Origin: Antennarius striatus
Taxonomy: Eukaryota > Chordata > Actinopteri > Lophiiformes > Antennariidae
Assembly (NCBI RefSeq): GCF_040054535.1
Contig: NC_090784.1
Location: 12,273,001-12,337,000 of the forward strand
Direction of reading: 5' to 3'
DNA: 64,000 nucleotides
Position numbers and translations under genes: made by a program. Below, piece by piece: positions 8,421 to 61,200 of this stretch. Positions within the stretch are counted from its first letter, which is position 1. Each line of letters starts with the position of its first letter. The notes under the pieces are model-generated. The model was not told where the DNA came from, searched no databases, and was given only the letters and a program-made list of their open reading frames with translations.

Positions 8421-21526
<13,106 letters not shown>

Positions 21527-33003: not shown

Positions 33004-36000
33004 TTATCTCTTTGAACTGGGGTTTTCAGGTTTTTCCTCTGGGTGGCTTTTCTCATGAGCTTTCAAGGTGCGTTCACGGCCGAAGCTCTTCCCGCACACT
33101 GCGCATGCAAAGCGCCCCACGGCGTGCGCTCGTGACATGTGGGCCTCCAGCTGTTCTGGACGAGCAAAGCTCTCGTCACACTCTTCACAGGGATGGGCTT
33201 TGCGTGGGGTGTGTTTCTCCTTCTTGTGAGCACGGAGCAGAATCAGGGTCGGAAAAGTGAGGTCACAATCTGGACAGGGTTGCTGACGAGACACAGGGGA
33301 ATCTGCTTTAGGTTTTTTTCCCTTTCCTGGAGTCTGACTATCATCTCCAGAACTCTTATCTTCTACTTCTGATTTTGTTGCTGCTTTAGGAGGACGGCCA
33401 CGCTTTGCTCCACCTGCTTTTCCTTTCTCCTCTGCTGGAGGTACAGCCACTACCTCTGACGTGTCGGTGGTCTTCGCTGCCTCCTCAGGTGCTTCTGCAT
33501 CATCCTTCTTTTTCCGCTTTCCTTTTTTCTCGGCAACTGCTGGATCTTCAGCTTTGGAAGGCCTTCCACGTTTCTTGACAGTCGTTACACTGCCATTGCA
33601 CTGCTGACCTTCAGGGTACTTCTCCTGGTGCGCCAACAGCTCTGACTCTGTTTCAAAGCCCTGACCACATTTCTGACAGCGGTGAGTTTTGGTAGAGTCC
33701 TCCGATAGTTCTGCTGTTTCTACGTCTGGGCGGGGGTGTTGGGTCAGACGATGGGTACGCAGGAGTCCAGCACTCCGGAAGGTTTCATTGCAATCTTTAC
33801 ATACCAACTGCTTCTCTGGACACGACTGTCTTCTATGGGCTGTGAGCTGCCAAGGAGTGGAAAGAAGTGTACAAATGAATTTAATATACCCTATTTTGCA
33901 CACCATAGGACGCGCTTGAAAGCCTTTAATTTTCTCAAAAATCAGCGCTGCCCCTCTTAACACAAAGCGCTTAATGTCTAAACTGAAGTTTGAAAAGCTT
34001 TAAAAATGTTTTTGAGCAATTTTAGTCAGCGCTCCGCCAGATTGGCCATTTTCCACCAACATAGGACGTAATACATCACTACATACGCCAACAGCGATAA
34101 ACCAATTAGAACGTGACGCAAGGCTACCTCCGGCACCCCTCCGGGAGGTACCACATCTGTTTGGCTAAAGACCCCGGACAATGGCATCAGGGAAGAGACA
34201 TGTTTACGAAGCACTATTTAAACTCCAGGCTATCAGTTACACGGTTGTGAACGGTAATACAGTGACCACGAGAGAATTTAAAATTAACAAAGATATGGTT
34301 CAAAAGTGGAGGAAGCAAGAGAATCAACTGCACCAAGTTAAGAAAACCAAACTTAGTTTCCGTGGCAACAAGATGGTCGAGTTGGAAGACGAGCTGGAGC
34401 GATGGATTCTGGACAAAGAACAGCCGGGAGGAGGATCTCTACTGTCATGTGAAGCAACTGAATTCGGAGCTTGCAATCATCCCAGGAGGAAGAACTAAAG
34501 AACTCCAACCGCTGGACATTGGTTTAAACAGCTTAAAGTTAAGCTACGTGCATCGTGGGAGCAATGGATGAGAGACGGTGAACACACGTTTACCAAGACT
34601 GGGAGGCAGTGCCAAGTAAGTTACACCACAATATGTGAGTGGATTGTGGATTCCTGGAGTAACGTATCTGCTTCGACAATCATCCGATCTTTCGCAGAAG
34701 CCGGCATCATTACTGGGCAGCCACCCAGAAACAAGATGGACTCCGACAGCGATACTGAAATTGTGGAGTTGCTCAATTCAGAGACCGAAGATGAGGACTT
34801 CAAAGGATTTACCACGGACTGATCAAAAAATTAAATAATATTTCTAAAAATAACGCTGTTGTATTTTTAAATTTTAAATACGTCGTACAACACAGTTCAA
34901 TCTCAGTCATTGTTTCGCTTCTGTTACCTTGTTCTAGCATGCGCCAAACAATAAAGTGCACCGTATGTATAGTTTAAGTACAGAAACAAACTCCAGAATT
35001 TAGGCTGCGCCTCTTTATACGATATGGTTTGTAAAATACGGTAAACTATTTGACAAAATTTTTACATTCACTTACAATTCATAGTTATTTACAAGCAATT
35101 TTCCCAGAAAAAATGAACTTTAAAATTTCACTCACCTCAGAGAACGTTTTAAAGCTCTCTTTGCAGTGAACGCATTTGAAGGGCTTGTCGTCTTTGCTGT
35201 GTGTTGGCTGGTGCAGAGTCAGTTCCTCAGATGAGGGAAATGTGCGGTCACACACGTAACATGTGAACAATGTGTTTCCCTGGTGAGACAATAAAATTAC
35301 ATTAAAGTTTGATAATGGCAAAAATGGAATTCAATGACAATAAGTACTTGTAAACTATAACTTCTTAAAATGTTGTATCCAAGTTTGTCAGATATGCTTC
35401 AGTCAGATGTTTTGGTTAATTACAAGCAGCACAGCAAAAATAGTGTCCATCTATCTTTAATGCTGTGTAAAACAAGCTCACTGCAGGTCAGTTGCTAACT
35501 TAGACACAAGTTAGGAAAAATGAATGCACTTCAGCTCTCAGTCACCATCACAGTGGTAATTTCAACATATATTCACAAGGCAGAAAAAGGCAACTGTTTG
35601 TAAGACACAAACAGTTGTACATTCAATGTCTGCATGTATGGCTGACTGTAGTTTGTGCTTTAGAAAATCTGATGAACACTGATTACAAATACAGTAAATC
35701 CCTCGCGCATTCGCACTTCAAGATGCCCAGCTTCACCTCATCGAGGATTTTTAGTAGGTCGTCACGTGATACCGTACGCGCATTCTATTGGCTGACAACA
35801 TCAGGAAAGTGCGCTGCGTTCCGAGACTCGCGGAACGCAGCACATGTATTCAAGAAACACTTAAAAGTGCTTTCAACAATCTATAAGCGTGTGGGAAAAG
35901 GTAATACAGATATAAGGTGGTTTAATATCAGTATGGGAAGGGTTCATGAATGTTTAATTCACTGTAAATAATAAAATAGTTTTTCGCAGTATCGCGGAAT

Positions 36001-36456
36001 TTCGATATTTGCGGGTGGTCCTGGAACGCATTAACGAGGGATCACTGTATATTAAAAAGCTTCCTTCACAAAATGTTTCAAGAACCAAAATCACCTGCTG
36101 AAGCTGCTGCTTGTACTCTTCCCGGTGACTTTTCTTCATATGCCTTTCCTTGGCTTTGGCACTGCAGAACGTGATAAAGCACTGGAAACACTGCAGGTTT
36201 TCATGCTGGTCTAAATGGACATAAAGCAATAACAGACATCACAAAATGACAAAGTTGGTTTTTCAGATGTACAAGTAGATTTAGCTCAAATGAATGACTT
36301 GTACAACTTACAGGACTGAACAGGTGGCGCCGGGGGTCCATTAGAAGTAACAGATTTGTAGGGCTCCACGGGCTTTTCAGGTGGAACCTCTGGAGGGGGG
36401 TCTGGCAGTCCCCGTCCCATCACGATGTCCTCTATGTTCAAAATGTCTGAGTCCAT
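33004..36456 (-). CDS. C2H2 zinc-finger protein with AT-hooks
   Basis: Four minus-strand exons: 36456-36312 (MDSDILNIEDIVMGRGLPD, proline-rich), 36210-36095, 35279-35136 and 33846-33004. They sum to 1248 nt, 415 residues, with every junction in frame. C2H2 fingers: LQCFQCFITF, FTCYVCDRTF, FKCVHCKESF (split by an intron inside the finger), LVCKDCNETF, HRCQKCGQGF (degenerate second half), QPCPDCDLTF, HPCEECDESF and FACAVCGKSF. Between the fifth and sixth lie two AT-hook cores (KKRGRPSKA near 33560, AKRGRPPKA near 33400) in a lysine-rich linker, so minor-groove binding is likely. A 5' noncoding exon with donor at 37272 probably precedes it. Its first fingers match those of the neighbouring zinc-finger/PiggyBac gene, so the two are probable tandem duplicates. 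Confidence 0.88.
33887..35043 (+). mobile_element. Pogo/Tigger-type DNA transposon with deleted catalytic core
   Basis: The ends TACCCTATTTTGCACACCATA and, reverse-complemented, TACCGTATTTTACAAACCATA are inverted repeats flanked by TA. Inside, 34181-34430 encodes a pogo-type N-terminal DNA-binding region (SGKRHVYEALFKLQAI, REFKINKDMVQKWRKQE, FRGNK). A later piece (34500-34822) resembles the C-terminal end (LQPLDIGLN, CEWIVDSWSNVSASTIIRSF, EAGI). The middle, which should carry the DDE catalytic triad, is missing. It lies in the last intron of the AT-hook zinc-finger gene. Confidence 0.85.
35690..36049. mobile_element. MITE with TACAGTRATCCCTCG inverted ends
   Basis: The left end TACAGTAAATCCCTCGCG and the right end, reverse-complemented, TACAGTGATCCCTCGTTA form terminal inverted repeats at TA sites, as for mariner/pogo-like short elements. 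It also holds CGCGGAACGCAGC and a TCACGTGA E-box. It lies in an intron of the AT-hook zinc-finger gene. Confidence 0.7.
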
Positions 36457-37830
36457 TCTTGTAAACGACGTCGTATCAACAGGCACCCACAACTTTCCTT
36501 AATAATTTAAAGAACGAAGGGGAAACAAAAACGATGTCAAATCAAAGTACCGATACATATAAAGTTGAAATTGCGGTATGTTATAATCCGGTTGACAATT
36601 GCAGCTTATCATGAATATAAAATATCATATTCCAAAATGTTATTAATTGCATTATGAATCCATTACGTTCAACAGATGAACAATAAAAATGTTTTGCATT
36701 TACACTGGGCAGCAGTAAAAGCTAAGTAAACGTTTTAATATGCATCTTAAAATATACCGTAATTTGTTGTTTAGTGTTACCTAACAGCTAATTCAATTCA
36801 TACAGGAACCAGTCAAGTTTCATCTCGTCAACATTTACGTTCGCTTCTACCCGCAGGGCCGCTAGCTAGGCTAACTAGCTGCATGTCTGCCTACGAGCAT
36901 CCGGTGACCATTTACTTGATTTAAATGCCTTAACGGGTCTAGAATTTAAACTGAGACCATTTGCATGATGGATGAATGCTTCAACTTGATGCCCGTGAAC
37001 GTAACTGTTAGCTAGTGCTAATCCTGAAGGACCAGGATATCGAGCGGGCTACCACAAGCTAACGTTAGCCTGCTAGTAGTTAGCATTAACAACACTGGCT
37101 GCCATTCAAAAAGGGTTGACGACTTTTCGCTCCCATTACCACACTAACTTTTCTCCCGTTTTTCTCCCCTTGCATCCACTTTCTAAATATAAATATGGTG
37201 CACGATAATATGTATACGAATAGTAAATGACTTAAATCACAAATATTAATCTGAAAAGACGTTTACGTTACCTCGAACCGCTCTTGTAGTTTGACTGAGA
37301 GTTGACCATAAAGATGTACAACGGATAGATCGGACACTTACTGGCGGATGGTTGTGACAGACATTGGCACAACCAAAATGGCTGACGAGTCTTCCTATTG
37401 GTAATGTTCATGCAAAACTTTAGAGCATATGGTAAAAATCAAACTATTCCTTCCCTCGCTGATACAAAGCAACACCATGTATCGTAATATGTGAGAGGGA
37501 AATGCAAACAATAAATGGGAATGAATAAAATATTTACATAACATTACTTTGATCAAATATTTTATTTTAAAAATCGTACCACAGCAGATATTCCGTTGTA
37601 TTATAACGCATACGGTCTGAAGAAACACGCAAAAACCCGCTTACACCGTCATGAGCATGGGTTTGAAGCGACCGATCTTTTCTATTTACTCTATATCTAT
37701 GCGTGAAGTCCGTCACGTGACCGAAAACAACGTCGTGAAAAGTGGGTTCGTTATTTAAATTCACTGAGCTGTTAATGGTTTGTTTACTTCCGTCTTCCAT
37801 CCACGTCCGGACAAATTCAGATTAAATCAC
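36457..37830 (-). promoter_or_regulatory. 5' UTR intron and promoter of the AT-hook zinc-finger gene
   Basis: A minus-strand donor (TTCGAG|GTAACG at 37272) and an acceptor just before the start exon define a probable 5' noncoding exon ending near 37345. Just upstream are a YY1-like CCAAAATGGC (near 37374) and ATTGG (CCAAT, near 37397), and at 37712-37721 a perfect E-box GTCACGTGAC. The 36850-37095 stretch is rich in GCTAGC/GTTAGC words. No other gene is visible. Confidence 0.5.
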
Positions 37831-37863: not shown

Positions 37864-37902
37864 CTGCAAATGTGTTGTAATCAATCTTTAACACATTTGC
37901 AG
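37864..37902. repeat. Perfect 13-bp inverted repeat (hairpin)
   Basis: CTGCAAATGTGTT at 37864-37876 and its exact reverse complement at 37890-37902, with a 13-nt loop. Just upstream of the E-box region in minus-strand terms. Function unknown. Confidence 0.85.
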
Positions 37903-38821
37903 CATTCCCTACTTGTTTTGCTCATGTCCCCATATTTTTGTCATATCTTTGTTTACAAGTTAGTGAATGCACTCAGAACTTTTTTTTTTTGTCAAAACCT
38001 TATATTTATTTTATAAATTACAAGGGTCACTAGAGTCAAAATGGTTAAAAAACTAAATCAAAACACTTGTGTGGCTCACCCTTCATCCAGGTTATGGAAA
38101 TCATCCAGTGTTGAATTAGAAGCAACTGGTCATCTATTCATCGGTAAAGGTTAACTTCATTATCGCTGCAGAAACCTGTAGGCAGAGCAAATCTCTGTTT
38201 CAACCTTCAAGAACAAAGTGGGGTTTTTTTTTAAATATGACAATCTATGACACCAACACAGTGGTGCATTTCTAACCTCCTTGTGTATGTATTTCAAAAT
38301 AGTTATTTCAAATGTGAAATATCATCAGTAATAATCAAACACAGAAAAACAACAATGTATCTATTTCATTCATCTGTATTTTATTGTTCGTAATTTTTTT
38401 TTTAATTCAAATAAATAATGTCAAATGTATGAAGCCTAAAACTGGCTCATCAGAGAATATCCCAATGTCATGTGTAATAAATACTGTATTTAAAAAAAAA
38501 AAACATCACAGTAACTGTAATGTCAAAATCACATCTTTTGCAAAATTAGCTGCATAAAATGTATGGCTATGAACATATTAACATTTTGGAAACAAAAATT
38601 CATTTTTACACTGACAATACAGGCTACAACACAATGCATTTTGATATTTTTAAAACTGCACCACAATGATCCAACGAAAGAATGACACTGAAAGGCATCA
38701 TGGATAGGGCTGTGAGGAGATTAGAGCTATGTTTTCATTATCTTGGTTTACATGAACCCAGTTACACTCTCAAGCAGAATGGGAAATGTTTAAAGATACA
38801 GAATGAATTCTGATGTGGTTA

Positions 38822-41800
38822 CTACTGCTTTCCCAAACTCCCTTGACTATGGAAATTCAAAAAGCAGTTGTGGTTGCGTGAAATACAAAGAAAGACACAG
38901 CATTTAAGGCATAGCACTCGAGATGTTCTCCGACAGTCTTTAAAACGACACCGGCCTCCCTCTCCCTCCCCAAGCTGCTCAGGCCAGTGACCTGAACCAT
39001 CAAACCGCGTGGCTGCATCTGGCAAAGGACTTTCTTCCAACAAGCTAGGATTGGGTGTGTCGTTTGCTGTATGAGTTTTCTCTATGGGGGGTTGAGAGGG
39101 AATTGAGTCCCGGCTATCAGCATCAATGGAGAGGATTAATGCCTTGGACACCTGTAATCTAAAGTCCATGAGAGTCAAAGGTGTAGATCCCACCCTGTGG
39201 TCCTGTCTGTAGAGGAGCCAGGAGTTGACCAAAGCCAGATCTGTTAGGTACCAGAGCACAGCTTGAGGCCAGCAGGTTGGGGCGGTGGTGGTGAGAGGGA
39301 TAGAGTAAAGATTTCGTAGATCTCTGCTCATGTGAGCTGACATTTGTGCTTTCTCGAAGTTGTCGATGAGTGACCCCATGTTCCTCTGGCTGTTTCCGGC
39401 AGTAGAAAGTATGAAGCCCCAGTGTGATCTACGCAACATCAGCTTCCCGTCTGAGCTCACAAACTCATCTCCGATCTGTCCACGAGCTCCTCCCACCCTG
39501 CCGGCTCCGTGAACTCCAGCAAGTAGGAGACGCTCCAGCATAGCAGGGGTGGAGTGTTCTTGTTTGCAGAGATACACCATACTGCCTTTTGGGGCAATAT
39601 TTTCTACTGCATCGTCTTTGCTAGACAGACCAACCTTAAGATCCACATTCAAGAGAAAACCACCAAATCCAATCAATGTTGTACAAATGAGAGAAGGAGA
39701 ATTATTGTGAATCTTCCTGGTTAAAGGAAGTGGGTATTGGTCAATGACATAATGATCGTCCCATCTCAGTGACAGACACCCAGCTTTGAAACGATGCAAC
39801 AATGGCCTTGTCTTCCACAGGGGATCAGTTTGACCTGCTGGACTATTCAGGTCATTCTGCTTGTTTCTCTGCTGAAAAAGTTCACTTTGTCTGCTTGGGG
39901 GATTTTTACATTGCTCTGCATTTTGAAATCCACAGTCGTGTCTGCCTTCCTGCATATTACTAATGACTGAATCCTTTGCAGCAAACTTCAAAATGCGAGT
40001 CAACTGGTGAAAACGGGAAAGTGGCATGGCTTCAGCAATCAAGGGCACCTTTGTCAGGTCCTCCCAGTAGAGCTTCAGACTGGGAAACTAAAAAACAACA
40101 AAAAAGAGGAAAAACAATTAGATACGAAATATAGTTTTGCATCAAATTAATAAAGCTAAATAAACATTCAAGACCAAAGGTTTAACGGAGCACAAACCTT
40201 CAAAGTTCCCATTGCGATGTGGATCCCAACAAATTGAGCAACCTCTCTTCCCGTGACAGGGTTTGGCAGTTTAGACAACTCATTTGTGCAGCTGGCAATT
40301 TCTACCCAGGTGTCCCAACCAAAATACTTTGAGAAATATTCAATAGGTTCTCTGGTTTTGTTTCTATCTCCTAGTGTTTCGAGTTGGCTCACTGAATTTG
40401 GAAAACTGTGGGATAAAAAAGAAAAATTATCATGGACACAACACTGAACGCCACATACAAAAACAAACAATTACTTATTTCAAACACATTAATCACTAAA
40501 AGCCTAAGTTTTTCCCCAATTTCTATATTTGTAGAAAATTTAAAGCTACAGAAAACTGTAATGTTTTCAGCACTGAGGGTTTGAGAGAAAAAAAAGATTT
40601 ATTGTACTTCTGTGATATTTCATCTGGCTGTCGTGCGTTGCTTGTTTCGTTCTTGTAGAAGTAGGTCAATATTTCTGCTTCGGTGTCAAGCTGGGGATCA
40701 GCCAATTCAAAACTGTCCGCATCCTCTTCATCTGAGCTCTGAAGGAGGAAGTCTTGGAGGTCTGGTGGACACAGATTAGTATTTTATCAAGCAGTGACTT
40801 TAAAGGTATTAATAACAAGTAATCCTGTTTTTAAAACAGAAAAAAGAACTTGTGTATCTACAATCTAATCATTCATACAAAAATACATATATTATTGTAA
40901 AATAGACTAACCCACCTAGATTATTGTCTGTTTCTTGATGATCTGTCAATATGGCATCAGTAGGTGTTCCTGTGGTTACATTTCCACTGACAGACCGAGC
41001 GGCACCCAGTAGAACCTCCCTGTCCTCCTCCTTCACTGGATAGAAGATACACTGGCTGGTGTTGAAATCAGGGGATTCGTGACACTCCCTTATTGTTTCA
41101 GCACTATTGATGACTGAAAAAGAAAAAAGCCAAAATTTTCCGTTTAAAGTTATTCAAGGTCAACAAACTGCTGTTGCAGTCCACAAAATTGTTTTACCAC
41201 CACTATCTATTAATTCCATTTCCATAATAAAGCAACTATGTGACTATCGCACCTTGCCATAAATATGACGAAGCAGTTCAGAAATTCTCAAAACAACACC
41301 TCCAAAGCTCTGCAAATACTGTTATGTGTAAATTTGTGGTTTCAAAAATAAGTTTCTTGTCTACAAACAGTAGGAATTTGTCCAGTATTTTATTTGCAGT
41401 GTTGTTTTTGTTGGAAACAAACTGACAGTAAGAGTATGGAGGACATTACACTCGACATTAACATTCTTACATGCTTCCTGTGCAGGTTAATCAAACAGTG
41501 TGTAAATTTTATGCTTTATGTGTTTAAGAGTTATCATTTAAATTTGGGACAACAAAAGCTAGGGGTTTTCTTTGCTTTCCTGTCTTGTTCAGACTCTGTG
41601 TTTGTGTGCCCGTAGACTATAGCTGAAGAATAAGCTCAAAGAGGAGTCTACTACATCTTCTCTCTGTATAGGATTACATCTTGTTTGTACATGGTCCAAG
41701 GCAAAGTCAACAGACACAAATAACCGCACAGTCCTCATGCTAACATTATTTTCTCTTTTCCATAAAATCATACACCTTCTATAGAAACGGTTCATGGGAC

Positions 41801-44800
41801 GAAAACAAAAACCAGAAAACAAAACAAAAACAAAAACTTAGTATTTTCTAATGTTCCGGAACAGAATCGGAACAGAAAATAATTGTAATCAGATATTACG
41901 TTTTTGTTTTTTTTAGATATTTTTTAAAAAAAATATCTGACCTCATGTTCCCCTTCCTGTCATTCACTAAATGTGTGATGACAGCAGACAGATGATGAGG
42001 CACATCACCAACAGTCAAGGAAAAGCCGTCTCCCAATCTCGATTATATTCATAACAGGTAAACACTGCAGTCTCCATCCATCCATCTTCCACTGCTTATC
42101 CGTAGTCGGGTCGTGGGGGCAGCAGCTTCAACAGGGAGCCCCAAACTTCCCTTTCCCCGGCCACATCCACCAGCTCTGACTGGGGGATCCCAAGACGTTC
42201 CCAGGCCAGTGTTGAGATATAATCCCTCCACCTGGTCCTGGGTCTGCCCCGAGGTCTCCTCCCAGTTGGACGTGCCAGAAACACCTCGGCGTCCCGGAAT
42301 CATCCGCACCAGATGCCCAAACCACCTCGACTGACTCCTTTCCACGCGAAGGAGCAGCAGCTCTACTCTGAGCCCCTCGCAAATAGCAGTGTTTCTCACC
42401 TCTGAGGGACACACTGCAGTGTCAATCTGAAAAAGTGTTTGATTTAGACATTAACTCTTTGGCTGCCAGTCGTTTTCAGTGCAGTGTGTCCCCGTATGCC
42501 AGCGCTTTGTAGCAATTAATCTCCTTCGGTGGACTTCCTCTGACGCTCCGGACATGTATCGGTGTTTTCTTTCTGTTCTTGATCGATCACAAGATGTTTC
42601 ACTGAGAGCTTCAAGTGTTCTCTCCCCGGTGAGCTCTGACATACACAAACATTGTTGCATCATAAACTGCCGCAACTTCTCTGTCTCCCACTGATTCTCT
42701 ATCGTCTGTTCCATAAGTGGATCAGTGTTGTTGTCCTGTTTACTGTAGGGACAAATCTGCAGTATATAAACTAATTGCTTTAATTGTCAATTTAAAAGTC
42801 CTAAAGCTACCTACCTATTTATGTGTACAAGGAATGTTATTAACCGGTTCAGGAATGTCCTTTCATGGGTGGAACGTAAAATCGGAAACATTATAATGCT
42901 GTTTTTGTTCGGAACGAACCGATTGGTAAAACATTATACTTAAAGCCCTGCATACATTATACACCAACATGTGCATTACATTTTTCTGTTGCATTACCCA
43001 AAATGCTTTAAAGTGCACCTGTAATTACACTTACGTGAACTGGAGGTGTCTTCATTGTTGACTGGATCTGCATTCCATTGGACGTGTCTGCTGCTCTGCA
43101 TGGACTGGACCTCAGTAAACACTTGCGTGCTCTCCTCCTTCACCAAAACAGTCCTTATGTCACGATGATGCTGTGGCTGCACAACTGTATTTTCCCCATT
43201 TTGACAGGGGGTGGCAACTGCTAACGCATCTGGAAGACTCTCTTCAACCTTGATCTCCTGGCTTCTCAGGACCTGAACTTCATTCTCAAGGTTTACCTGT
43301 GCCTGAAATGAAAATAAATGTGAGCATGTGGAATTCATCATTTGGGTTAAATGCATATGATTTATATAATTAGTATCTGACCTGTCCTTCAATGTTTGTC
43401 TCCTGGTCACAAGTCATTCTTTGTCTTGACATGAGGAATTTCTCAAGTATGATTCCAGGAGATTGGTCCCTATCTTGTTTGTCTCCACCTTGCAGACCTC
43501 TTTGATTCATCACCTCTTCAACACTGGTGGTGACTGACTTCAGCTCAAACACGACTTGCTCTTCAGATGATTCCTCTAATATAGATGGTATAGAGGGTAA
43601 AGGTGTGGGAGGATCAGTAGCTTTGTTGGTCTCAAATTCCAAAATGGTGTCTGTCATTGAATTTTTTGGACTAGTCTTACCTTCAAAATTGGCTTCTGTA
43701 TCAGATGTTACAGGATGCATTTCGTAAACTATCCGACATTCCTCCTGTTCCTTGTCTGATTCTGTTTGTTTGTTAGCATGTATAACTGAAACAGTCTTTG
43801 ATATCATGTCCCTTTTAAGACATCCTGTTCTTCTCCAACCCCTTGTAGTATTCCTCACAACAGCGCCACTCTCTTTTTTCTTCTGGACCAAGATTTCCTC
43901 CGCTTCTTCTTTCACATCCATTTGATGAGTAGAGCATGACACAGTCTGTGACGCAAGACTTTTTTCTGTTTCATTACTAACTTGCCCAGTGCTTCGATTA
44001 CTGGGTTCATTTGATTCAATTTGGGGAACATTGACTTCATGGGAAGTTGGCTCATGACTCTCATTTTGCTCCCCAACAGTGACCAAATCTACCTCAAGAA
44101 GTAAATCCTCCTTGATGTCTTCTTCCACAACACCCTGGACTTCAGCTTCTGAGCCGACATTCTTCAGAGTCCCTTCTTCTTGCTTGTCCTCACCTAATGT
44201 CAAAGACTCCCCCTTCTCACAACTCTTTGTATGCGGGGTCTTACTATTTTCTTTTTGATCAGATGGTGGGTGTACTTCTGGAGAGGTAGGTGATTGATCA
44301 AGTGCTTTTGCTTTATTTCCACCCTTATCTCCATAGCCACTCATTTCAACTTCTGTGGGGGGGCCAGGTAAAGAAGGGGATGGAATCAATGCTGGAAAAG
44401 AAACATTTCGCTCTCTGTCTTCTAACGCCATCTCTCCAACCTCTGGCTCAGTATCCCAGTCTGTGGCAGCATTTATCATCCCAACCAAATGATTGTGTTG
44501 TTTTGGAAACCGGTAAAGATCCGATTTTGACACACCTTCAAAGATATTTCCATTGGTGTAAGTGAGACCCGGACTCTCTATAATGTGCACTGTCGCCTTG
44601 TGTTTCTGAAGGGATGAGACTTCACTAAATCTCTCTCCACAGTCCTTACACTCCAAAGCACGCTTAGAATGAGAAGATATCACTCCTTCGATCTCCACTT
44701 TTGAGGAGGCTTTACGTTTCCTGGTGGCCTTTTGCTTAGGAGGCAATGTCTCAGACGACTGACAGGAAACCTGCAGCGAGGACAACAGTGAAAGAGCTTT

Positions 44801-47800
44801 GAGGTTCTTCTTGGGTCTCCCTCCTTTTTTCTTACCTTCTGCTTTGAAATTATTTGTTGAATCACTGACAGGATGTTTGAGTTTGTTGCCTTTACTCTGT
44901 TGAGGCACTGTTGGAGATCGAGGTGAAGTCTCCTTTGTCTGACTTGATGCCTTTGGTGTGTCTAATTTGTAAACTTTCAGTTGTGGCTGCTTATGTCCTT
45001 TCAGGAGAAGAAGAGCATCTTGAGTTTTTTGTGGTCCAGCAATGTCTGGTGAAGCAGTATTAATTTTTTCCTTTTTTTGTCTTTTCTTTCGATTTCCATC
45101 CTTTGCATTCTTGGTCTTGCTTTTTTGCATCTCTTTTGCTTGTTTTGTTTTTTTAAAAATGGGTGATGCTGCAGTTTTGTGCTCACTTACATGTGTAACA
45201 CAACCTGGGGCTACGGCTTTTTGCTTTTTCATTTTATTTTTTCTTGTATCCTCTTTCATTTGTAGGTCCTGGGTCAATGGTGGCGATTTAATTTGAGCTT
45301 GAGATACGGAATGTCCCACATTCTTGTCCTGTTTTTTCTTTCTTCCTTTCTTCTGCAATGGTACTTTAGTTTCAGGGATCTTTTTTGATGTTTTCTTCTC
45401 TTTCATCACATCCCCCTGTGCTTGCTTACGCTGCTGTGATGATTTCTTTGTTTTATTTTTCTCTTTACTTTGTGGACCAAATTTAACTACCAGATGAGAT
45501 TTTTTCGATCTTTGGCGTTTAGCAGGCCGGCTTTGAATTGGAAAGTCATCACTGTACATGGATCCAACCAGTTCTTGCATATATCCTTGAAATATAAATG
45601 CCCTAGCTGGTTTTCTTTTCCGTACTTTCACCAGTTCTTGAGCCGACATTACACTTATGGGTAACTCGGAGATCTGTGGTACTTGTTTTGCCTCCCCTTG
45701 TGAAAGAACCTTGTCTTCAGGGGACGGACCATTTATTTCATTTAGATTTTCCACCAGGTTCTGATTCCTTTTTTTATTTACAGGCGGTTTTTCAGGTGGT
45801 TCTTTATCAACATTTTTTTGTGTTGACTCTTCCTGTGTGTTTTGTGATGTGTCTCCATCCATCACAGAGTGAACATGATCTGGACTTACTGTCTGCATCT
45901 GGAAATCAACATCTTTTTTGGGATTGCTTTCAAATACACTTGGAGTTTGTGTAAGGGTATCTGATGGAACAAATGAGCCAGAGGGAAAGTCCTGTTGTTC
46001 TCTTTGTAAAGGGATCAACTCCAACTCAACCGTATGCAGCATTGGTGGGACTTCTGGGTCCACCTCCGGCTCAGCTATTACAGTCTGATCTGGAGTCTGC
46101 TCAGGAATCTTCTCCATTCCCGTGGTTGGTACCACAGACGAGGATGGGATTTCTTCTTGTGGCACAGTTTGGGATTGTTCCAACTCCACTGTTGGTATCA
46201 AGGCTGGGGTAAGTTCTAATATGACTGTTTCCTCCAGGTTTTGTTTGAGCATATCTACCTCATTCTGGCAAACCATTTGGTCCACAGCACCAGACTGAAT
46301 TGCACTATTGTTAGACTGCTGGAAGATCTGGTGCATTTCTTCTCCCACAAGCCTTCCTGTTTGTTCACTTGGAACAAGTGTTAGTTCTATATTTTCACCT
46401 ACTACTATGTGGGAACTCATTTCAGTGAAAGAGGGGGTTTCCAATTGTCCTTCTGGTGTAATAGGTTCCAATATAATTGTTTGCTCCATTGCCTCACATA
46501 GGACGTTAGACTGAGCCAATCCCACCATGTTAGATTCATTCTGTTTCATTCCCATGAAGTCTACTTGCGGTGGATTGAGATTAAAATTCCCTGACTCCGC
46601 CACTTGTGAAAGTTGCTGCACTGCCAACGGTGGGGCATGAGGCGGCACCTGCCCCAGGATTACAACTTGATTGACTTTCTGCACATTTCCCAAAGACTCA
46701 ATTAGTCTGCGAATCTGCTCTGTGTCAATATTGGCATCAACTTTTTGCAGAGGTCCATTTGGCTCCACCTGTAGAAGTGCTGGTTGGCAAAAAGGTATCG
46801 GAGTAATGATGGGTGTACTTTGCTTCTTTTGCTGCCCAGCTGCAAGGACATTACCAGCTGCAGCAGGCAACATTTTGTGCTTCGTTTTTATGTGATGAAG
46901 CCGTGTCTTGGTACTCTTGAAGGTGGCCTTGCATGCACAACACGGATACTTTGTAGAAGCACCTAAAATAATAAAAAAAGAATTACGATACACTGTAGGA
47001 TATTTCCTGCTACCTAAGGACACATTTTTAAGAAGTTTCAGAATCAACAACAATGCCAATAAAATTATCACAATGTGAAAATGAGCCTAAATCAACAAAA
47101 TTAAAAAAGGACTTGAATTTTTTTGGAATTTAACTATTAACAGGATTTTTCTTTTAGTAAGTGAATCTATAACTTTTGAAGTTAGTTTTGCTATATTTTT
47201 GTCACAAACCAAAATATTGGACACGTTAAAATCTTTATCTACAGTAATGCTGGTGACAAGCTGTTAATCTTAAAATTTCATAGCAATTTGTTCAGAAATT
47301 TAAATTGTAAAATCAACCATGACCTTCACACATGTGTTTCTGAGCTTTATAAATTGTCAAGAGATTACATCCTTAGGATTTAGCCTTTAGGATAAATTAA
47401 TTTAACCTAAAAAAGCAGATGAGAAATTTCAGTCTGGATAAATGTGCAGGCCAGACTGTGGCACCTAGAAAAATTGTAAACTAGGCAAAAATGCTAGTTT
47501 TAATGTTTAAAATAAGTTGACATAGATGGCATTTTTCTTACCATCATCTTTTTTTACTTGTTCTTTAGCTTTGTCTTCTTCTTCAGCTCCCTCTGGAAAG
47601 TGTGATACCATATGTTTCTGAAGAGCTTTGGACATAGTGAATCTCTTTCCACACTCCTTACAAATGTATGGCCTCTCTCCAGTGTGCGTTCGGCGGTGAT
47701 ACTTCAGCAGTGTCATGGTTTTACAAGGTTTGCCGCAGTCGGTGCAGGCATAACCATCCAAACCAAAATGAATTTTCTTATGAAGGGTGAGCTCTGATGA

Positions 47801-50342
47801 CTTCTTGAAAGCCTGGCTACAGATTGGACATTTGAAGGGTTTCTTCTCTACGTGGGCTTTCTGGTGGGCCATGAGCTCTGTGGAGTTTGTGAAGTGGCGG
47901 TCACAAACATAACAAGCGAAAAGGGCATTTCTCAGTATACATTGTTCATATTCTGCAGGGTGACTCAACTTCAGATGACGTACTTTGCTCTTTTGATCAC
48001 TGAAGATTATGTGGCACTCAATGCACTGCAGGGAGAGCTGAGATGCTGGAGAGAAAAAAAACAGAAGGCAATATTATTCACATGTATCATACTGTACTTC
48101 TAAGAACAGAGGTAAACAGAACAGCACAACCATCATCCATCCATTTTTATTTTTTCATTTCCATTTCCCAGCAGCTTCTTCCACTTTGCAGGTCACAGGG
48201 GTTGCTGGAGGCTGTCCCAGCTGACTACGGGTGAGAGGCAGGGTACAATCCGGACCGCCAATGCATCGTGGGGCCACACAGAAGAAAATCAACCACTCAC
48301 GCACACACTCACACCTACAAACAATTCAGAACTGATCAGTTCACCTAACCTGAATAATTTTGGAGGTGGGAGGAAGCCGGATAACGTGGAGAGAATCACG
48401 CAGAAAAAACACACCCATTAGACTTAGAATTACACAACCTTTTATATGTTGCACGTTATTATCTAAAAATTTCCAAAAAGTGTCAACATTTGATCAGAAC
48501 TTTAAATCTGTTTGTTTGAATCTGCATAGATGAATATTTGATCAAGGTAATCCAGGCTCTGGATGCAGCATGTCTTATCACGTAACACAATGACAGGGCC
48601 ACAAGTTCTTAAGAGCATAAAAATGACATGCTGACTGCAGTAATGTCCACCAAAACTGTTGTCCATGAACAGAAGCAGACCGAAACACAAATGTACAAAA
48701 CCCGTGTTATTCAATCAGCATCTTGATAAGTCGTCAGGGAACGGTTTATTCTGATCAAGAAAAATAACCTCACTGATAAAGATCTAAATAATTTGTTGCT
48801 GCAATATTCCTGTGTTTTGATAGGTTGTCGATGCAACATAAAATAATTTAATGTATAGTATACAGGAAATATTTTTGCACAGTTAATTACTACAGAACTT
48901 TGTGATGCCTATTCAACTTAAAACACCTAAAACCTAAAAACACAATCATCACCACACTAATAGAAATGCTTCACTTAATGATCTGTTTATAACATGGTCC
49001 AGAATGCCCACATGCCAATATTGTAAACTGGGAAAGATATGAACCTACTAAAAGGATCATGTGATTTGAAAGTGATATAATTTTATTTTCACAGTGGGGA
49101 GTCATAAACTTGTTCCTGGAGGCATAACAACACATACACAAAGTGAAAACACTCACATGTGAGAGGCACAACCAACGGTTTAGACATGTCCATCTTCAGA
49201 GGGTCGATCATGGCCTTCTTGGAGGGGACATATTTCCTACCGTCACGTACAGCTTTATCAGTCTTTTTTGTCTTTGGTCCCTCACAGCTGGAATTTGCAT
49301 TTTTATCTGGGCTTGGTTGAACGGGAGCACCTTCTTTTGATGAAGAGTCAAACTTCTTCCCTCCAGTGTTCTTTGAGGGACCAGTCAGCTGCTGAGCTGC
49401 AGTCTCTTTCTCCAATGCATGTGTGACAGCCATGCCCGCAGGTGCTTCTACATGTGTCCCATTTTCCTGCGGTGCCATTGTGTCAGTCTCGGTAGAGATG
49501 GCAGATGTCCTCGCCTCCTCTGGTGAATCTGGTTCACCCTGTACTGGCTGAGATCCAGTATCCGCCTTTTGTGGTTTCTCTGTGGTTGGAGTGATGACAA
49601 GTTTTGGTCCAGCGCTTGACTCGGTTAGACTCTGCATGGCTCCAACTTCTTGGTTTCTCAAAGGCTCTGGTTTGTACGTTTCTAGGAGATCAGGCCCTGC
49701 ACAGAACACAGAATATCTGTTAACTGAACAGCTAAACCAACAAAAAAATAAACACGAATTTTAAATACTTTATCAAACGAATAATTTGGAAGGAAAAAAA
49801 AACAGATTTTCTACGAGGCAAACGAGCTGCAGCTGCTTTGTTGTCTACACGGCGACAGCTGGGAAACCAGAGAATGAATGGGTTTAATAGATTTGTATTA
49901 CAAAAGGCGACCGATGAACATGGGGGGAAGGGGGGCGTTGGAGACGCTTGTGTGACCCAGCAAAGAGAATAAAGGAAACCCTACATGAGCTGTTGATAAC
50001 ACAGTGCTGTAAGTTGCTGATTATTTAATCAAACAATCCCTCCACATAAACCAAAGATGCACAGATAGCATTAGCTTAGTTAGCTTAAATTCATAAAATT
50101 CAGTAAAAGAACGGGTTGCAAATGTTTGTATTTGCAGCTTATTATAGCGCCAAATATGCTTCTAAACTCTGTGCCTTCTCTCTCAGAAACTGTTTTAGGT
50201 GAAAGTGTGAAGTAGGATGCAGATTTTGGTTACCTAAGATCGCTCGTACGCCCAGACATCTTCCCGTCTCTTCGCTCCGCACAAAACCAACGAAGATGCC
50301 ACAGACATCGCGAGCTCGTTGGACCAAGCTGCACAGATTCAT
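38822..50342 (-). CDS. C2H2 zinc-finger / PiggyBac-transposase-derived fusion protein
   Basis: Nine minus-strand exons: 50342-50234, 49696-49157, 48045-47542, 46962-43382, 43302-43035, 41113-40916, 40761-40608, 40405-40198 and 40087-38822. They sum to 6828 nt, 2275 residues, and all junctions keep frame. The 48045 exon has five fingers (LQCIECHIIF, FACYVCDRHF, FKCPICSQAF, YACTDCGKPC, YICKECGKRF). The long exon has two more (YPCCACKATF, LECKDCGERF), lysine-rich blocks and an AT-hook-like KGGRPKK. The last three exons encode a PiggyBac DDE-type domain (LPNPVTGREVAQFVGIHI, LPLTR, WPQAVLWYL) with a C-terminal zinc ribbon (CRFKDCRRTSRVLCLKCC). Introns split the transposase part, so it is a host exon set and not a fresh insertion. 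Several sumoylation-type KxE sites lie in the middle. I know of no named ortholog. Confidence 0.78.
41790..42955. mobile_element. Possible old DNA element around a LINE fragment
   Basis: The left part (GTTCCGGAACAGAATCGG) and right part (GTTCGGAACGAACCGATTGG) share a GTTCCG/CGGAAC theme in opposite senses, which suggests a single older element with a LINE fragment (42062-42415) inside it. Clear terminal repeats were not found. It lies in the intron between two exons of the zinc-finger/PiggyBac gene. Confidence 0.35.
42062..42415 (-). mobile_element. LINE 3' fragment (non-LTR retrotransposon)
   Basis: The minus-strand frames read QSRWFGHLVRM, then PTGRRPRGRPRTRWRDYIS and LAWERLGIPQSELVDVAGER, the typical C-terminal end of a fish LINE, different from the family at 25270. 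It is 5'-truncated and lies in an intron of the zinc-finger/PiggyBac gene. Confidence 0.85.
48128..48420. repeat. Teleost CCATCCAT-type interspersed repeat
   Basis: Reads CATCCATCCATTTTTA, GGTCACAGGGGTTGCTGG, GGCTGTCCCAGCTGACTACG, then GGTGGGAGGAAGCCGGATAA, a common dispersed fish repeat. Related to 15842-16030. It lies in the intron before the five-finger exon of the zinc-finger/PiggyBac gene. Confidence 0.7.
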
Positions 50343-51689
50343 GGGAAATGTATTTTTTTTCCACGTCTGTTCCCGAATATGTTCTCATCTCATACCAGGT
50401 TTCCTACGTACGGCAGCAAATTTCAGTCCAAATTTTGTGACTAACTTTAATCAAGTCTATTTTATTACAGTGGGATAAAATACACTTCTTCCTTAGTCAA
50501 GTTTATTGGAAGCTCACATGTAAGATTTAATTTAAAATAATTAGGATAATTAAAATAATAATGAATTTTCTAAACTCCAAAGGACAGAGAAAATATGCAG
50601 AACTAGTTAAATTTCACACTAGAAAAATTTCATTAAATTATAAGACAAAGAAAATACAACCACAAAAAGTGTAACCGAATTGCCTCTACTCTTAAACTTT
50701 ACTTGAAAAAAAGTGATCTGTAACAGTTATTCATAATCATTTGTTTGCTTTCACATAGTCTATGGGTTTGAACATTTGTAAAAGTGCTAAGGGACGCAGC
50801 TGCACATGCAGACTTGGACTCAGTTGAGAAAACAGCTCTGGTAAAAGGTGAATAACCGTATATCTATGTACACTCAAATATAAAAACAGTGTTTCCTTGA
50901 AAATTTGTTCAATTTGTTCAGGTTTTTCGTGTCCTTCGACATGCAAAACTTATTTTTGTAATGTACCAAGTTTTTTATTTATTTATTAAGGAACAAAAAA
51001 CAAAACAAAAACAAGAACAACACAAAAATGCAAGCAGCGGAAGTACGTAGCATTTTTGCAGTACAGCACATTAGTGTGTCTCCACTCCATCAGCAAAGTA
51101 ATCTTCCCGGTGTTGGATTTACATGACCTCTGGATGTCATCCCACTCGTCTGTCTGCTGCTGCTTCCAAGTACATGAAAGATGTTCATATTGTCACATTC
51201 AATCCCAAACTTGTTTTTCACAGGATTTAGTTTTCCCTGCCAAAAGGATGATAGCAGGATGATTGCCCCACTTGTACCATTCTTTCTTCTTCTTTTGGAG
51301 GCTTTGTTCTTCGATCCTCAAATTTTTTTACGAGAGTGAGTTATTTTACCATGCTCGTGGACATTTTGGATTATATGGAATAAGGCGTCATGGATATTCA
51401 TGTAAAAGTTGCATTTTTAGATGATTTATCATAAAAATGCAAATGTGATTAAACCCCAAATGTGAAGAATTACCAGTAACCCCACCCTACATATAGATGC
51501 ACTCAATTTAAAATAGAGAAAGTTTCCTTAAATTCAACCAAAAAGTGGTACCGCATTGACATCCCTTAAATGTGTATACGTACTACATTACTTAGGCTTT
51601 GTTAAAACATGTTCAAACAAGGTCATTGAATTTGCTTTTGTTTTTTTAATGAAAACTCAATCTCAGTATATCTAATCATATCATCTTTT
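50343..51689 (-). other. 5' flank of the zinc-finger/PiggyBac gene and intergenic stretch
   Basis: No gene seen. The first few hundred bases before 50342 would hold the promoter on the minus strand, but no core motif stands out. Confidence 0.4.
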
Positions 51690-55284: not shown

Positions 55285-58200
55285 TCACTCTGTATTACTG
55301 AAATTACCACTACATTCCTGGTGATGATCAATGAGCTCCTGTATTTCACTGAAGGTCCGGGGGCAAATAGAGCAATGATAGGAGTCACTGTTGCAGAGCG
55401 GAGTTTTGTTTTTTTGTAACATGGTAGGAGAAAAAAAGGCTTTGCTGTTAGGCTGGCATTCAAGACTTATCTGCGACTGACTATCTGGGTCAAGTATAGT
55501 TTGGTGTAACGTTGAAGTTTGGCTGTCGGCAGACAGGATGTTGGATTTTAGTGTTTTTGAAGTCACTGCAGTGCTGAGTCTGAAGCGGACCTCATTTGGG
55601 AGACGACAGCGGACTTCGTCGTGCCACAGGAGGTGCTGCTGCAGCTGACTCTCAGTCCACAAACCCTGGCAGCACAGCGCACAACAATAAGGCCGGCTTT
55701 TTCCCTTAGTCTTATGGGTTTCTAACTGTTCTTCCGTTTGGAAAGCCTTTCCACATTTAGCACACTTAAAGAAAAATTTTACGGAATGATCCGACAAACG
55801 GTTAAGAGGTGAAGAAAACTCAGCTCTGGTGTCAGGAATGTGAGTTTCCTGATCAGATTGGAAATTTACCTCCTTGAACATGTTCTTACAGTCAAGTAAG
55901 GGACCAGGACTACACTGCACTCCACAATCATGGATTGAGACAGATTTTACAGGTGAGGTACCAGACCCGACAAAGCCATCTTTCACTGTCATTTTAGCAC
56001 TGTTTACAGCTAGTGAATCTTCAGGCTTTTTTGCTTCACTACTTGATACAGTGGGAACTACTTTAGTATGGGAAGAGATATATTTGCCTTTCATCTTCAT
56101 TGGGTGGGCCTGCCATTTGTGGGCACGTAATCCTTCTGCTTTGGCAAAGGTCATCGTGCAGAGAGGACACTGGTGAGGTTTTGTCTTCAGTGTCAGTGAC
56201 ATAAACTCACTGCATTGAACATTGCTGTTAACCTGTTTTGGGACTTGGTCAAACAATACAAATCTGTCTTTTTCATGATCTGTCGATTCCAAGGTGTTAT
56301 GTTGCTCATTTTCAAATTTTGCATCTGGAAGTGAATCTTGCACAAATGTTTTACTAAAAATCAGATCTGAAAACTCTGAATTCTTAGAACCTAGTAAGTT
56401 TCTGGTCTCCACACTTACTTTTGAATCACATTCTGGCTCCATGTTAGTTTGACATTGAAGATTTAACATTTGGTGGCGCTGGAGAACACAGAGATTAAAG
56501 AATTGCTTGCCACAGTTTTGGCAAGGAAAAGGTCCACCCTCTGTCTTTTGGTTAACAGATTTCAAGTCATCTCTTAAAGTTTGGGAAAATTTCTTTTCTT
56601 TGTGCCATCTTTTGTGGGACCCAAGCGCAGAGTTTGACAAGAATCGCCTCCCACATTCTGAACATTGAAATAATCCTTTACTTGGTTCTTCCTGTTTGAG
56701 TTTCTTAAATATTAGAGACATAGATGACTTAGCATTTTCTTCTGCCTTGTAACCTTCATTATGAATTCTTTTATGAAAATTCAATGCTCCAATTACTGCA
56801 AAACTTCTTTCACACTTGTTGCACTTGTATTTAAGATCATTTGTACTTAGATTTTCTAAGTTGGGACCACCCGTTTGAGTACCTACATTAAGTTCCATTG
56901 TGCCAATTTCATTTAATTCCAAATTAACTCCTTTTTCTTTAAGTACTTCCTGTGTGCCAACACTCATATGATCTGCCTCACAATCAAGTACTTGATTGTC
57001 TTTTTTAATGCAAAGTTTTTGATGAGCCTTCAAAGAGGTCTTGCTGTTAAAATGTGCAAGACATGTTGCACATTGTAGTGTGTCCAGTTTGACGGTAGAT
57101 CTTGGCGATGATGGTGAGTACCCGGTTTCATACCCATGACTTTTCATGTGAAACTGAAGTGCTTTGGCTCGTGAAAAAAGCTTCCCACAGTCAGGACAGC
57201 TGTATGTGTTTTTTTTCAATTGCTCAACCTGATGCTGAAAAGACTTAATTGGTGGTGGGAGTAGCTGGTCATTGTGCACAACCTGATGTCTAAGGAGACT
57301 GGAGAAAAGACGGAATGACCTGTCGCAGAGTTCACATTTATGATTTCCATTTTCATGTTTTCTTTTGTGCAATGCCATAATGCCCTTGTGTCTGAACGTT
57401 CTACCACACACTGGACATGCTATCTTGGAGCGCGGGCGTCTGTCAACTGTGCGCAAAGATCCTGTGAGACCTTTTCTTAACCTCAAGTCTGCACATTCAG
57501 TCTGTTTTTGCTTGTGGTGTGAAAAAGCTCCTAAAGACCAAAATCCCTTCCCACAGTGATCACAATGATAATTCTTTGGTCCTAGGAGGGTTTTCTTTGG
57601 ATTGTACTCTTTCTTACTAACTGACATATTCTCATTCTTTTGCACTGAGCAGTTTTTCATATGGTTGAACAAACTAGATGCATGCAAATAAGACGTCATG
57701 CAATCTGGGCATTGGAATTGCTTTTTTTTGGGATGATGCAACTGATGGAAAACTAATGCAGACAATCGAGAGAAGCCTTTACCACACTCATTGCATGCCA
57801 AATCTCTTTCAGATTCTTCTGCTGGGCACAAACCATCATTACTTGTGTTTTCATTTGTGTGTTGTTGGATGTGACTACAGTGTGCTACATAACTACTGGC
57901 TTCATGGGAACATATGTCACATGTGTAAACTGACACTGACTGACCTTGATTCTGACGTCTTCTGTTTTGAATGCCATGCCACACTCTGTGAACACGCAGT
58001 GAAGATGCACTAGAAAACCAACGGTAACACTCTGGACAATCAAATCTCTCTTCGGTTGTATTATTCTCTTCTTCTTTTGCTATTGGTGCAGGCTGCACAT
58101 CAGTTAGGTCATCGTCAATTTGTACAATTTTCAAATCCAGTTCTGATTTCGAAACTGCATTGGTCTCATATTCTCTTACTTCTTGATCCGATTCACACAG

Positions 58201-61200
58201 CAGTTCAAGATCAGGATTCACGTCTCGAACAGACTCGTCCTCAGATTCACTTGCACTGATCACCTGTACATTAAAATCCCCAGGTTCATAACTATCCACA
58301 TCTTCTTCAATGTCATTTGTATGTGAATTTTCTTCAGATATGATAGGAGGCACATTATCCCATTCCAATTGTTTGTTCTCAATCCCTTTAGTTTCAGTTC
58401 CCGAGATCTTCGGTTGAGGTAGCGAAGGAATGTATAACTGGGGATCTTTCTCTGTTTCACTGAACACGTCTGTGTGATGAAGCTGGTGGGAGTGGAGAGC
58501 CGAAGCCCTGGAAAACTTCAGCCCACAATCTTTACATTCAAATGCCTTCTTCTGTAGCTGACACACTTGATGATCAAACGACTTTGCTGGGGTCTCATCA
58601 CTGTGCACTGTGCGCTGGTGCTTGTAGTAGAACGTTGGACTCACAAATACTTTTCCGCACTGCTCACATGGGAACTTTGTTGTTTGATTATCTGAGTGAT
58701 TAGCATGCCATCGCTGATGGTTGTAGAGGGCTATATGTCCAGAAAAAGTTTTTTTACACTCATCACATCGAAACTTGTCGATGGTTTTCTTTGGTTTTTC
58801 TATAATTTCTTCTGGAGGACACTGACTATTGCGGCTAAATCGCTGATGTGTTTTCAGACGCATCAGAGTAATAAAAGCTTTACCACATGAACACTTAAAA
58901 GCCTTTTCAGTGGAATCATTCACCTGGATTTCACTTGGCTTGGCTTCAACTACTGACTCCTCAGTGTGACATACATCCCTTAAACCCTTGTTAGTTGCCT
59001 TTATCAGTTTTTCCTCATGACATCGACGGTGTGCATCAAGAGCTGAGGCACGAGAATAATTTCTACCACATGTTTCACACTGAAATTGCTTCTTTTTCAA
59101 ATCATCAAGGTCATGAAATAATGATTTGGAGGCTAACCTGTGTGAACGCTGATGGTTAAGGAAGTGTCCGATTACCCCATAACATTTTCCACATTCTAGA
59201 CATTCGTAGGTTTTCTGCTTTGTTATCCCAGAATTTGTTTTAATATGGGGCTTGTTTGGGGAGATTTGACTATGGTTCTTCTCCATGTGCAAATGGAAAT
59301 CACTTGCTTCAACAAATGAGACTGAGCATGAAGTACAGAAATTAGCAGTTTTTTTGTCCGTTTCTCCATTATTTAATCGTTCCAACCGGCCTCCTAAATG
59401 CATGTCTTCTTGCAGGTGATGCTGACGATGCTCCAAATAGGCACTCTCCTCCCTGAAGGCCTCTCCACACCGACAGCAGAAAACCCCAACCCCTAAAAAT
59501 AGAAAGGGGAAAATAGGAGGTCAAAGCCATTCCTGTTTCGGGAGAGTGAAAGAGGGAAAAAAACAAGGGGGGGTGGGGGGGTGGCACACAAATGACAAAA
59601 CAGGTGCAAAACGTGTCTTTATTATAGAACTGGATCGAGTTTTACAGCATAATCACAAAAATATAGTTTTGACTAACACAATGCCACCTACAAGAGATGA
59701 CAATTTCATTACATTTCATCTCAGATTTTAAGTATTTTATTATTTGATGCCTGTTGATTTGCACCATAATGTTGTGATGGAGAAAAACTTGTCATTGATG
59801 CTACTCCCACAACTATATGAAACACGACCATTTTCTAACATTATATTGAGTAATTGTTTCCAACAGACTGACTTTTACTCATTTAATCTTAAAAATATCA
59901 AAATCTCTTCTGATAAGCGTTGAACATTGCTTTATGTTTCAAGGCGCTTTTGGATGAGGTTTGTCAATAAAGCTCCTGTCATTGATAGCTGATGGCTTGT
60001 ACGATGAGAAAGAACACTGAAACAATAGTCTTGGCCAATAAAGCTGAGAAATGGAGTCACTAAGTGCAGATACAGTGACACCACAACAAAGTAATACCGT
60101 TTTTTTTATCATCAAACGCACAACTTAAAGGAGTTACTCCAAATCTGACAGGAAAATATATGCTGAAAAATTATTTTTCTCCGAAATAAAAAAAACTCTA
60201 AAAATAGTTGTTTAAGAGTCTGTGAAGAACCTCACCTGCTCTCATCTTGGAAGGTGAGTGAGTCCAACCATGTAGAGCAATTGTCATTACAGTAACCTAG
60301 TTGTAACGGTGTAAGAGTTCACAATGTACCTATCCTCATTAATAGTAGTAGATAATTGATTTTTTTTTGGTTCAAGAAAATAATTTGATTAGGTTCAATT
60401 TTATTGTCATTACACATAGTGCTAAAGCAATGCAGTAACCAGAAGTACAGAAATATCTGTGTAATAATAGTGGTAAAGTAAAATAATTAAACTATTTTTG
60501 AGAGTATGATTACAAAGTAAGTTTGATTACAGAGGCTTTGGTCTAAAATTAAATGAAGTAAATAAATAAAGTATTTAAGTTGTATCTGTGACAGAATAAG
60601 AAGGGGAAAAAGGAAGTGGACTTATGACATATACTTATCTCTGTGAAGACCTATGCATGTACACAATCTACATAACCCATAATTTAGTTTGAGGTGGGGT
60701 TTGTTATACAGTCAATAGTGATGTCTGTGACTTTCTCTGTACCACTGATTTTTTAAAGTTTTTTAGTCCCTCTATGTAAAGTACTATTTGTTAAATATGT
60801 TTGTTGTTTTTTTTAAAACAAAACAGCAGAATTGGACACGTACCTGAGCTACATATCATGTTCATGAAGAAGTGCATGCATCAGTGGCTCCTGATGTATT
60901 GTCTGAAAGCCAATTGTGGCATAGCCATCATCAAGTGTTCATGGTATGATTACCATCCAAATTGTTCCTAATGTGTACTGAAATACAGCCGTCGGTTTAA
61001 CAGGCTGGACATCCCTTCATTTGAGTGCAGGACACATTTTCCTGCATGCTGGCAATAGAATGTGACCATAGGCATCATCAACCATCTCTGCAGAGTTGTG
61101 AGTCCAATGGGATCTGAATGCCTCAATGCATTTTGACGTTTAGAAGTTTATGAAACATGCATCAATCAGTCAGCTTTTAATTTCTATGTTTCAATTCTAC

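Follow-up and report, generated by a model that had tools for sequence, protein, structure and literature searches.

New regulators are known to arise through host-transposase fusions. In the accessible parts of the literature, PiggyBac fusions are described with SCAN/KRAB or with CSB, and a review also mentions hAT transposases joined to zinc fingers. The same partial sources place the transposase of PGBD1, 2 and 3 in one uninterrupted terminal exon, give PGBD5 as the intron-bearing vertebrate case, and report MER85 elements as binding sites of CSB-PGBD3, with enrichment of this protein at AP-1 motifs. The PGBD3 splice acceptor lies 7 nucleotides (nt) before the first methionine (Met) of PGBD3, as far as the available text describes it (PMC2268245). 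'Domesticated PGBD' proteins of the fish Oreochromis, Pundamilia and Takifugu are listed in a figure legend. Here we describe a gene in a 64,000-nt stretch of the Antennarius striatus genome (contig NC_090784.1, positions 12,273,001 to 12,337,000; hereafter the window) that appears to join C2H2 zinc fingers to a PiggyBac-derived C-terminus. In the accessible portion of the open-licence literature we found no fusion of C2H2 fingers to PiggyBac whose transposase domain is interrupted by introns. On sequence evidence we favour, with a probability of about 0.7, a single gene: a host C2H2 zinc-finger gene that would long ago have taken over a PiggyBac transposon lying 3' of it. There may also be an isoform with the fingers only.

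The fusion gene has nine exons on the minus strand (50342-38822; Table 1). Splicing of the window sequence joins them in one frame of 2275 codons without an internal stop, as a preliminary description of this stretch had stated, and all eight introns are GT-AG. The same description had the 3.6-kb exon 4 running open to a GT donor with a stop three codons beyond, and this is what the sequence gives (EGQ up to the donor, then VRY and the stop).

All seven fingers claimed earlier are recovered by pattern (residues 224, 261, 289, 317, 345, 392 and 1156; five clustered in exon 3, two in exon 4). The N-terminal ones also stand by Pfam, where C2H2 families exceed the cut-off in the N-terminal 439 residues, but in a Pfam scan of exon 4 alone finger 1156 falls below the cut-off and finger 392 is unlisted. 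SCAN and KRAB are absent from Pfam scans of residues 1-439, 1667-2275 and 1582-1785 and of exon 4. That PGBD1 carries SCAN, as the preliminary description held, agrees with the available published descriptions, which give KRAB too. When exon 3 and the start of exon 4 were searched against the genome (548 Mb, 42 contigs), the matches listed (230 in the genome) held nothing past ordinary C2H2 similarity, the best being 35-50% identical. The host gene may be kin to mammalian ZNF576; no literature on znf576.1/znf576.2 was found. SUMO-type motifs occur along the linker (VKEE in exon 4, IKVE and VKEE in exon 5, VKEE in exon 6).

The PiggyBac-type character of the C-terminus is confirmed by Pfam DDE_Tnp_1_7 (PF13843; E=5.4e-19, 69.1 bits against a cut-off of 22.4) and by PiggyBac copies of the same genome. 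The Pfam match spans the exon 8/9 junction and covers profile positions 2-120 of 349 only; the rest of the transposase domain has no Pfam match but is matched by the same-genome copies. The PiggyBac part runs for about 490 codons without a stop or frameshift. A sequence search of the PDB returned only piggyBat (E=0.34), and scans of viral and prokaryote contig collections gave no relative. AlphaFold modelling of exon 9 alone has a mean predicted local distance difference test score (pLDDT) of 33. With an alignment that is itself built from PiggyBac rows the mean rises to 58, and the significant Foldseek matches of this alignment-based model are two piggyBat chains only. Residues 371-410 of the exon-9 model (the cysteine-rich block) reach a pLDDT of 91-94. 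An acidic PiggyBac start, sought upstream of four relatives in order to anchor exon 7, showed no clear homology.

Residues were compared in a MAFFT alignment with 23 PiggyBac rows of the same genome. The intact catalytic aspartate (Asp) triad of an active PiggyBac transposase is not present in this alignment: Asp 1 is kept (Asp1964), while Asp 2 is replaced by Lys2029 and Asp 3 by His2106. Parts of the catalytic core are missing, and the D1-D2 core is the least similar portion (25% at best). In the same alignment the C-terminal domain keeps eight of eight zinc ligands. Their spacing, counted by eye, is H-12-C-4-C-7-C-2-C-4-C-6-C-4-H, which is of the Pgm type (a His followed by seven Cys/His in the accessible descriptions). 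The C-terminal zinc ribbon proposed earlier is thus supported by its ligands and by the alignment of this end with PiggyBac C-termini of the same genome, but it goes unnamed by Pfam, which offers only Tc5_C at E=0.2. Because two cutting residues are lost and the zinc-binding end is kept, reuse of the tail as a chromatin-binding part is suggested. We infer that the product would combine a sequence-specific DNA binder with a transposase tail that has lost catalysis.

The PiggyBac part looks old, because its DNA has a single match in the genome, which is itself, and its protein relatives there are just 28-41% identical. A recent PiggyBac insertion was considered and dropped, the DNA having no second genome match. 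An inverted-repeat search of 37900-41500 returned 14 pairs, all short, imperfect or poly(A/T)-rich and none convincing as transposon ends; the part is single copy and without recognisable transposon ends, as expected of a domesticated transposase. In a tree of 13 rows the fusion gene has the second longest end branch (2.14 changes per column) and groups with L013, a PiggyBac copy of the same genome, at 93/94, below the tool's mark of 95/80. Copies of the L013 type are its nearest relatives by the pattern of the cysteine-rich domain; L013 differs in that its 462 residues lie in one open frame without interruption and include the catalytic Asp.

Other PiggyBac copies were seen in this genome. 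L043 (C9:24330300-24333300, positions 875-2623) is an open frame of 583 residues with Ala at the second catalytic Asp position; it groups with L042, where Asp occupies that position, and is possibly another domesticated PiggyBac gene. Many intact 547-residue frames (L001-L008 and further rows) lie across several chromosomes, which points to recent activity of a PiggyBac lineage unlike that of the fusion gene.

Splice sites were ranked with a splice-site consensus among 882 AGs and 689 GTs. Seven acceptors (exons 2-6, 8 and 9) rank within the top 0.1-3.2% of AGs and that of exon 7 within the top 8.7%; the donors of exons 2-6 fall in the top 1.0-2.3% of GTs, that of exon 1 in the top 5.5% and that of exon 8 in the top 7.3%. 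The training set for the codon log-odds held exons 2-4 of the fusion gene and five C2H2 exons from elsewhere in the window, so that only exons 1 and 5-9 are independently scored. In frame, exons 5, 6 and 7 score 0.202, 0.198 and 0.237, all above the 99% points of intron windows (0.154 for 268 nt, 0.175 for 200 nt and 0.183 for 154 nt). Exons 8 and 9 are supported through homology instead of codon score. No in-frame Met occurs across residues 1647-1849, and PiggyBac homology begins near residue 1803; the in-frame upstream extensions of exons 6 to 9 also lack a Met. For a separate PiggyBac product, the possible starts are thus exon 5, the extension of this exon into intron 4, and an unseen exon. 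Intron 5 (43034-41114; 1.9 kb) holds about 1.2 kb of repeats and about 750 bases without repeats, and its younger element (42414-42073) has many genome copies at 91-94% identity. The observed/expected CpG ratio is 0.83 at 50001-50500 and 0.29-0.48 over 41001-42000, and a value of 0.76 at 42501-43000 falls mostly within repeats. The fusion is supported by the Met gap before the PiggyBac homology, by exons 5-7 scoring above the intron null and by the repeat-filled intron 5.

Several results call for reserve about the gene model. The exon 7 donor at 40608 is weak (only top 39% of the 689 GTs); it is the better of the two frame-keeping GTs listed for this exon, and a frame-keeping GC at 40629 slightly outscores it (-2.5 vs -3.6). 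Exon 5 scores better in another frame (0.268), exon 8 reaches 0.053 in its own frame vs 0.101 in another, and for exon 9 the score of 0.113 is nearly equalled by an antisense frame (0.111). Residues 1-56 are doubtful because exon 1 does not score as coding (0.020); exon 1 is probably a leader, with translation starting at Met57 (49637). Continuity of frame alone is weak evidence because it arises by chance one time in three per join. Met 1646 in exon 5, and Mets in the extension of this exon into the 79-nt intron 4, offer a possible separate start. Intron 5 contains poly(A)-type signals (AATAAA at 41394, ATTAAA at 42784), which make a finger-only form possible.

These signals, and the stop three codons beyond the exon 4 donor, are what one would expect if one locus made two products, a finger-only protein ending just past 43382 and an alternatively spliced fusion. 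The documented precedent is CSB/CSB-PGBD3, where, in the part of the source available, PiggyBac serves as an alternative 3' terminal exon (PMC2268245). Here, however, the PiggyBac part is multi-exon and has no Met right after its acceptors, unlike PGBD3, and we consider this arrangement possible but rather doubtful; it overlaps with the single gene that we favour. The locus could also hold two transcription units: a zinc-finger gene that ends near 43370, and a PiggyBac-derived gene whose start lies within exon 5, shortly before it, or upstream of 41113 in an unseen exon. The poor codon score of exon 8 and the weakness of frame continuity as evidence speak for it. We gave this alternative slightly more weight because of the Mets in and before exon 5, but still find it unlikely: exons 6, 7 and early 8 and their upstream extensions hold no in-frame Met, CpG does not rise near 41113 other than in repeats, intron 4 is only 79 nt long, and VKEE-type motifs are common to exon 4 and exons 5-6.

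A PiggyBac copy in decay, lying downstream of a zinc-finger gene and linked to it only on paper, would fit the loss of two of three catalytic Asp and the poorly conserved D1-D2 core. It is hard to reconcile with about 490 codons free of stops and frameshifts despite so long an end branch, with the eight intact zinc ligands, and with a coding region split by an intron with a good acceptor, and we judge it improbable. Least probable is a PiggyBac end that is still a nuclease guided by the fingers. Asp 1 is kept, and PGBD5, said to lack three of four catalytic Asp, is reported in the accessible text to induce transposition (PMC4625184); nevertheless, Lys and His stand at the Asp 2 and Asp 3 positions and parts of the core are missing, which makes a nuclease role unlikely. 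The earlier interpretation is upheld in part: its claim of a C2H2-PiggyBac joined protein other than PGBD1 is supported by frame, splice sites, Met-less exons 6-8 before the homology, single copy and the two lost catalytic residues.

For the single fusion gene we propose the following. The finger array would pick genomic sites, and the VKEE/IKVE linker could be SUMO-modified and recruit repressors. The PiggyBac end would add a second contact, of its basic zinc domain (isoelectric point, pI, 8.9) to DNA or to histone H3 tails, and would perhaps also give dimerisation. The histone H3 contact is proposed on the precedent of ciliate PgmL proteins (catalytic site not intact, zinc ligands kept), whose C-terminal domains gave interaction signals with the histone H3 tail in the available part of the source. 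The fusion protein perhaps began by regulating PiggyBac-like elements, of which the same genome has many. Independent domestication, as the preliminary description suggested, is likely and rests on one genome; a sequence-guided chromatin protein is a reasonable inference. More tentatively, at somewhat less than even odds, we suggest that the domestication would be old and probably dates to the fish lineage; a C2H2 array fused to an intron-bearing dead PiggyBac domain with an intact zinc domain would then read DNA at one end and chromatin or PiggyBac-like terminal sequences at the other, possibly controlling PiggyBac elements of the same genome. If true, the gene offers a natural experiment on which features outlast the conversion of a transposase into a chromatin component (zinc end kept, two of three key residues lost).

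Table 1. Features of the fusion gene, in window positions.
Feature	Position	Strand	Description
Exon 1	50234..50342	-	ATG at 50342; splice join; coding score 0.020; CpG observed/expected 0.83 at 50001-50500; probably mostly 5' leader
Exon 2	49157..49696	-	Splice join; coding score 0.305 (exon inside training set); likely start Met57 at 49637
Exon 3	47542..48045	-	Five C2H2 fingers; splice join, Pfam, pattern
Exon 4 (3.6 kb)	43382..46962	-	Fingers 6 and 7 (weak by Pfam); basic Lys-rich stretch with GRPKK; long low-complexity middle
Exon 5	43035..43302	-	Acidic linker with SUMO-type motifs IKVE, VKEE; genome match is itself only
Intron 5 interspersed repeats	41784..42957	-	Genome matches at 75-94% identity; younger element at about 42073-42414
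Exon 6	40916..41113	-	Acidic linker with VKEE
Exon 7	40608..40761	-	Acidic; resembles disordered N-terminus of PiggyBac transposases by composition only; weak donor
Exon 8	40198..40405	-	PiggyBac homology begins here
Exon 9	38822..40087	-	Remaining PiggyBac-derived domain and stop codon
Asp1964	39758..39760	-	Aligned with catalytic Asp 1 of PiggyBac; kept
Lys2029	39563..39565	-	Aligned with catalytic Asp 2; lost
His2106	39332..39334	-	Aligned with catalytic Asp 3; lost
Cysteine-rich domain, residues 2221-2267	38849..38989	-	Ligand order H-C-C-C-C-C-C-H; pI 8.9

Two frames downstream on the minus strand resemble parts of the fusion gene: 35957-36238 matches finger 1 (40% over 48) and 35088-35330 the finger-2 stretch (53% over 49). 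They are apparently exons of an adjacent gene with fingers of this type. Further down, the minus-strand frame 33004-33999 encodes more fingers and a weak AT-hook match, with no PiggyBac part; the region 33004-36498 (minus) is a possible unfused tandem relative of the fusion gene. Upstream of the fusion gene, 55285-59520 (minus strand) is an open frame of 1411 residues with many dispersed C2H2 fingers. On the plus strand, 34169-34822 is a transposon remnant in which a weak DDE_1 fragment (0.001, below cut-off, the profile's end only) comes after a Brinker-type DNA-binding domain (PF09607, 1.3e-6); we take this remnant to be pogo/Tigger-like. A long CA/GT dinucleotide array at about 11064-11440 is open in several frames.

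Compared with known systems, as the accessible parts of their descriptions present them, the fusion gene resembles PGBD1 of mammals in placing a PiggyBac-derived C-terminus on host domains tied to zinc-finger transcription factors (SCAN and KRAB in PGBD1). It differs in having the C2H2 fingers themselves, without SCAN or KRAB in the Pfam scans, in a transposase broken by introns where that of PGBD1 is one exon, and in a C-terminal zinc domain that is not recognisable in PGBD1. Like CSB-PGBD3 of primates, it would splice a host N-terminus in frame to a PiggyBac transposase, and PGBD3 also has a Pgm-like C-terminal zinc domain; PGBD3, however, occupies one exon, has its own Met and carries one Asp-to-Asn change, whereas the fusion gene has several exons, no such Met and two Asp lost. 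With PGBD5 of chordates it shares single copy, introns inside the transposase domain and the loss of most catalytic Asp, but PGBD5 has no recognisable C-terminal cysteine-rich domain. A PGBD5 orthologue was considered and dropped, the C-terminal zinc domain being present here; PGBD5 is not known to carry a C2H2 array. PgmL of Paramecium is similar in that its catalytic site is not intact and its C-terminal zinc ligands are kept, but PgmL proteins are ciliate DNA-elimination partners, and no C2H2 array is named in the available descriptions of them.
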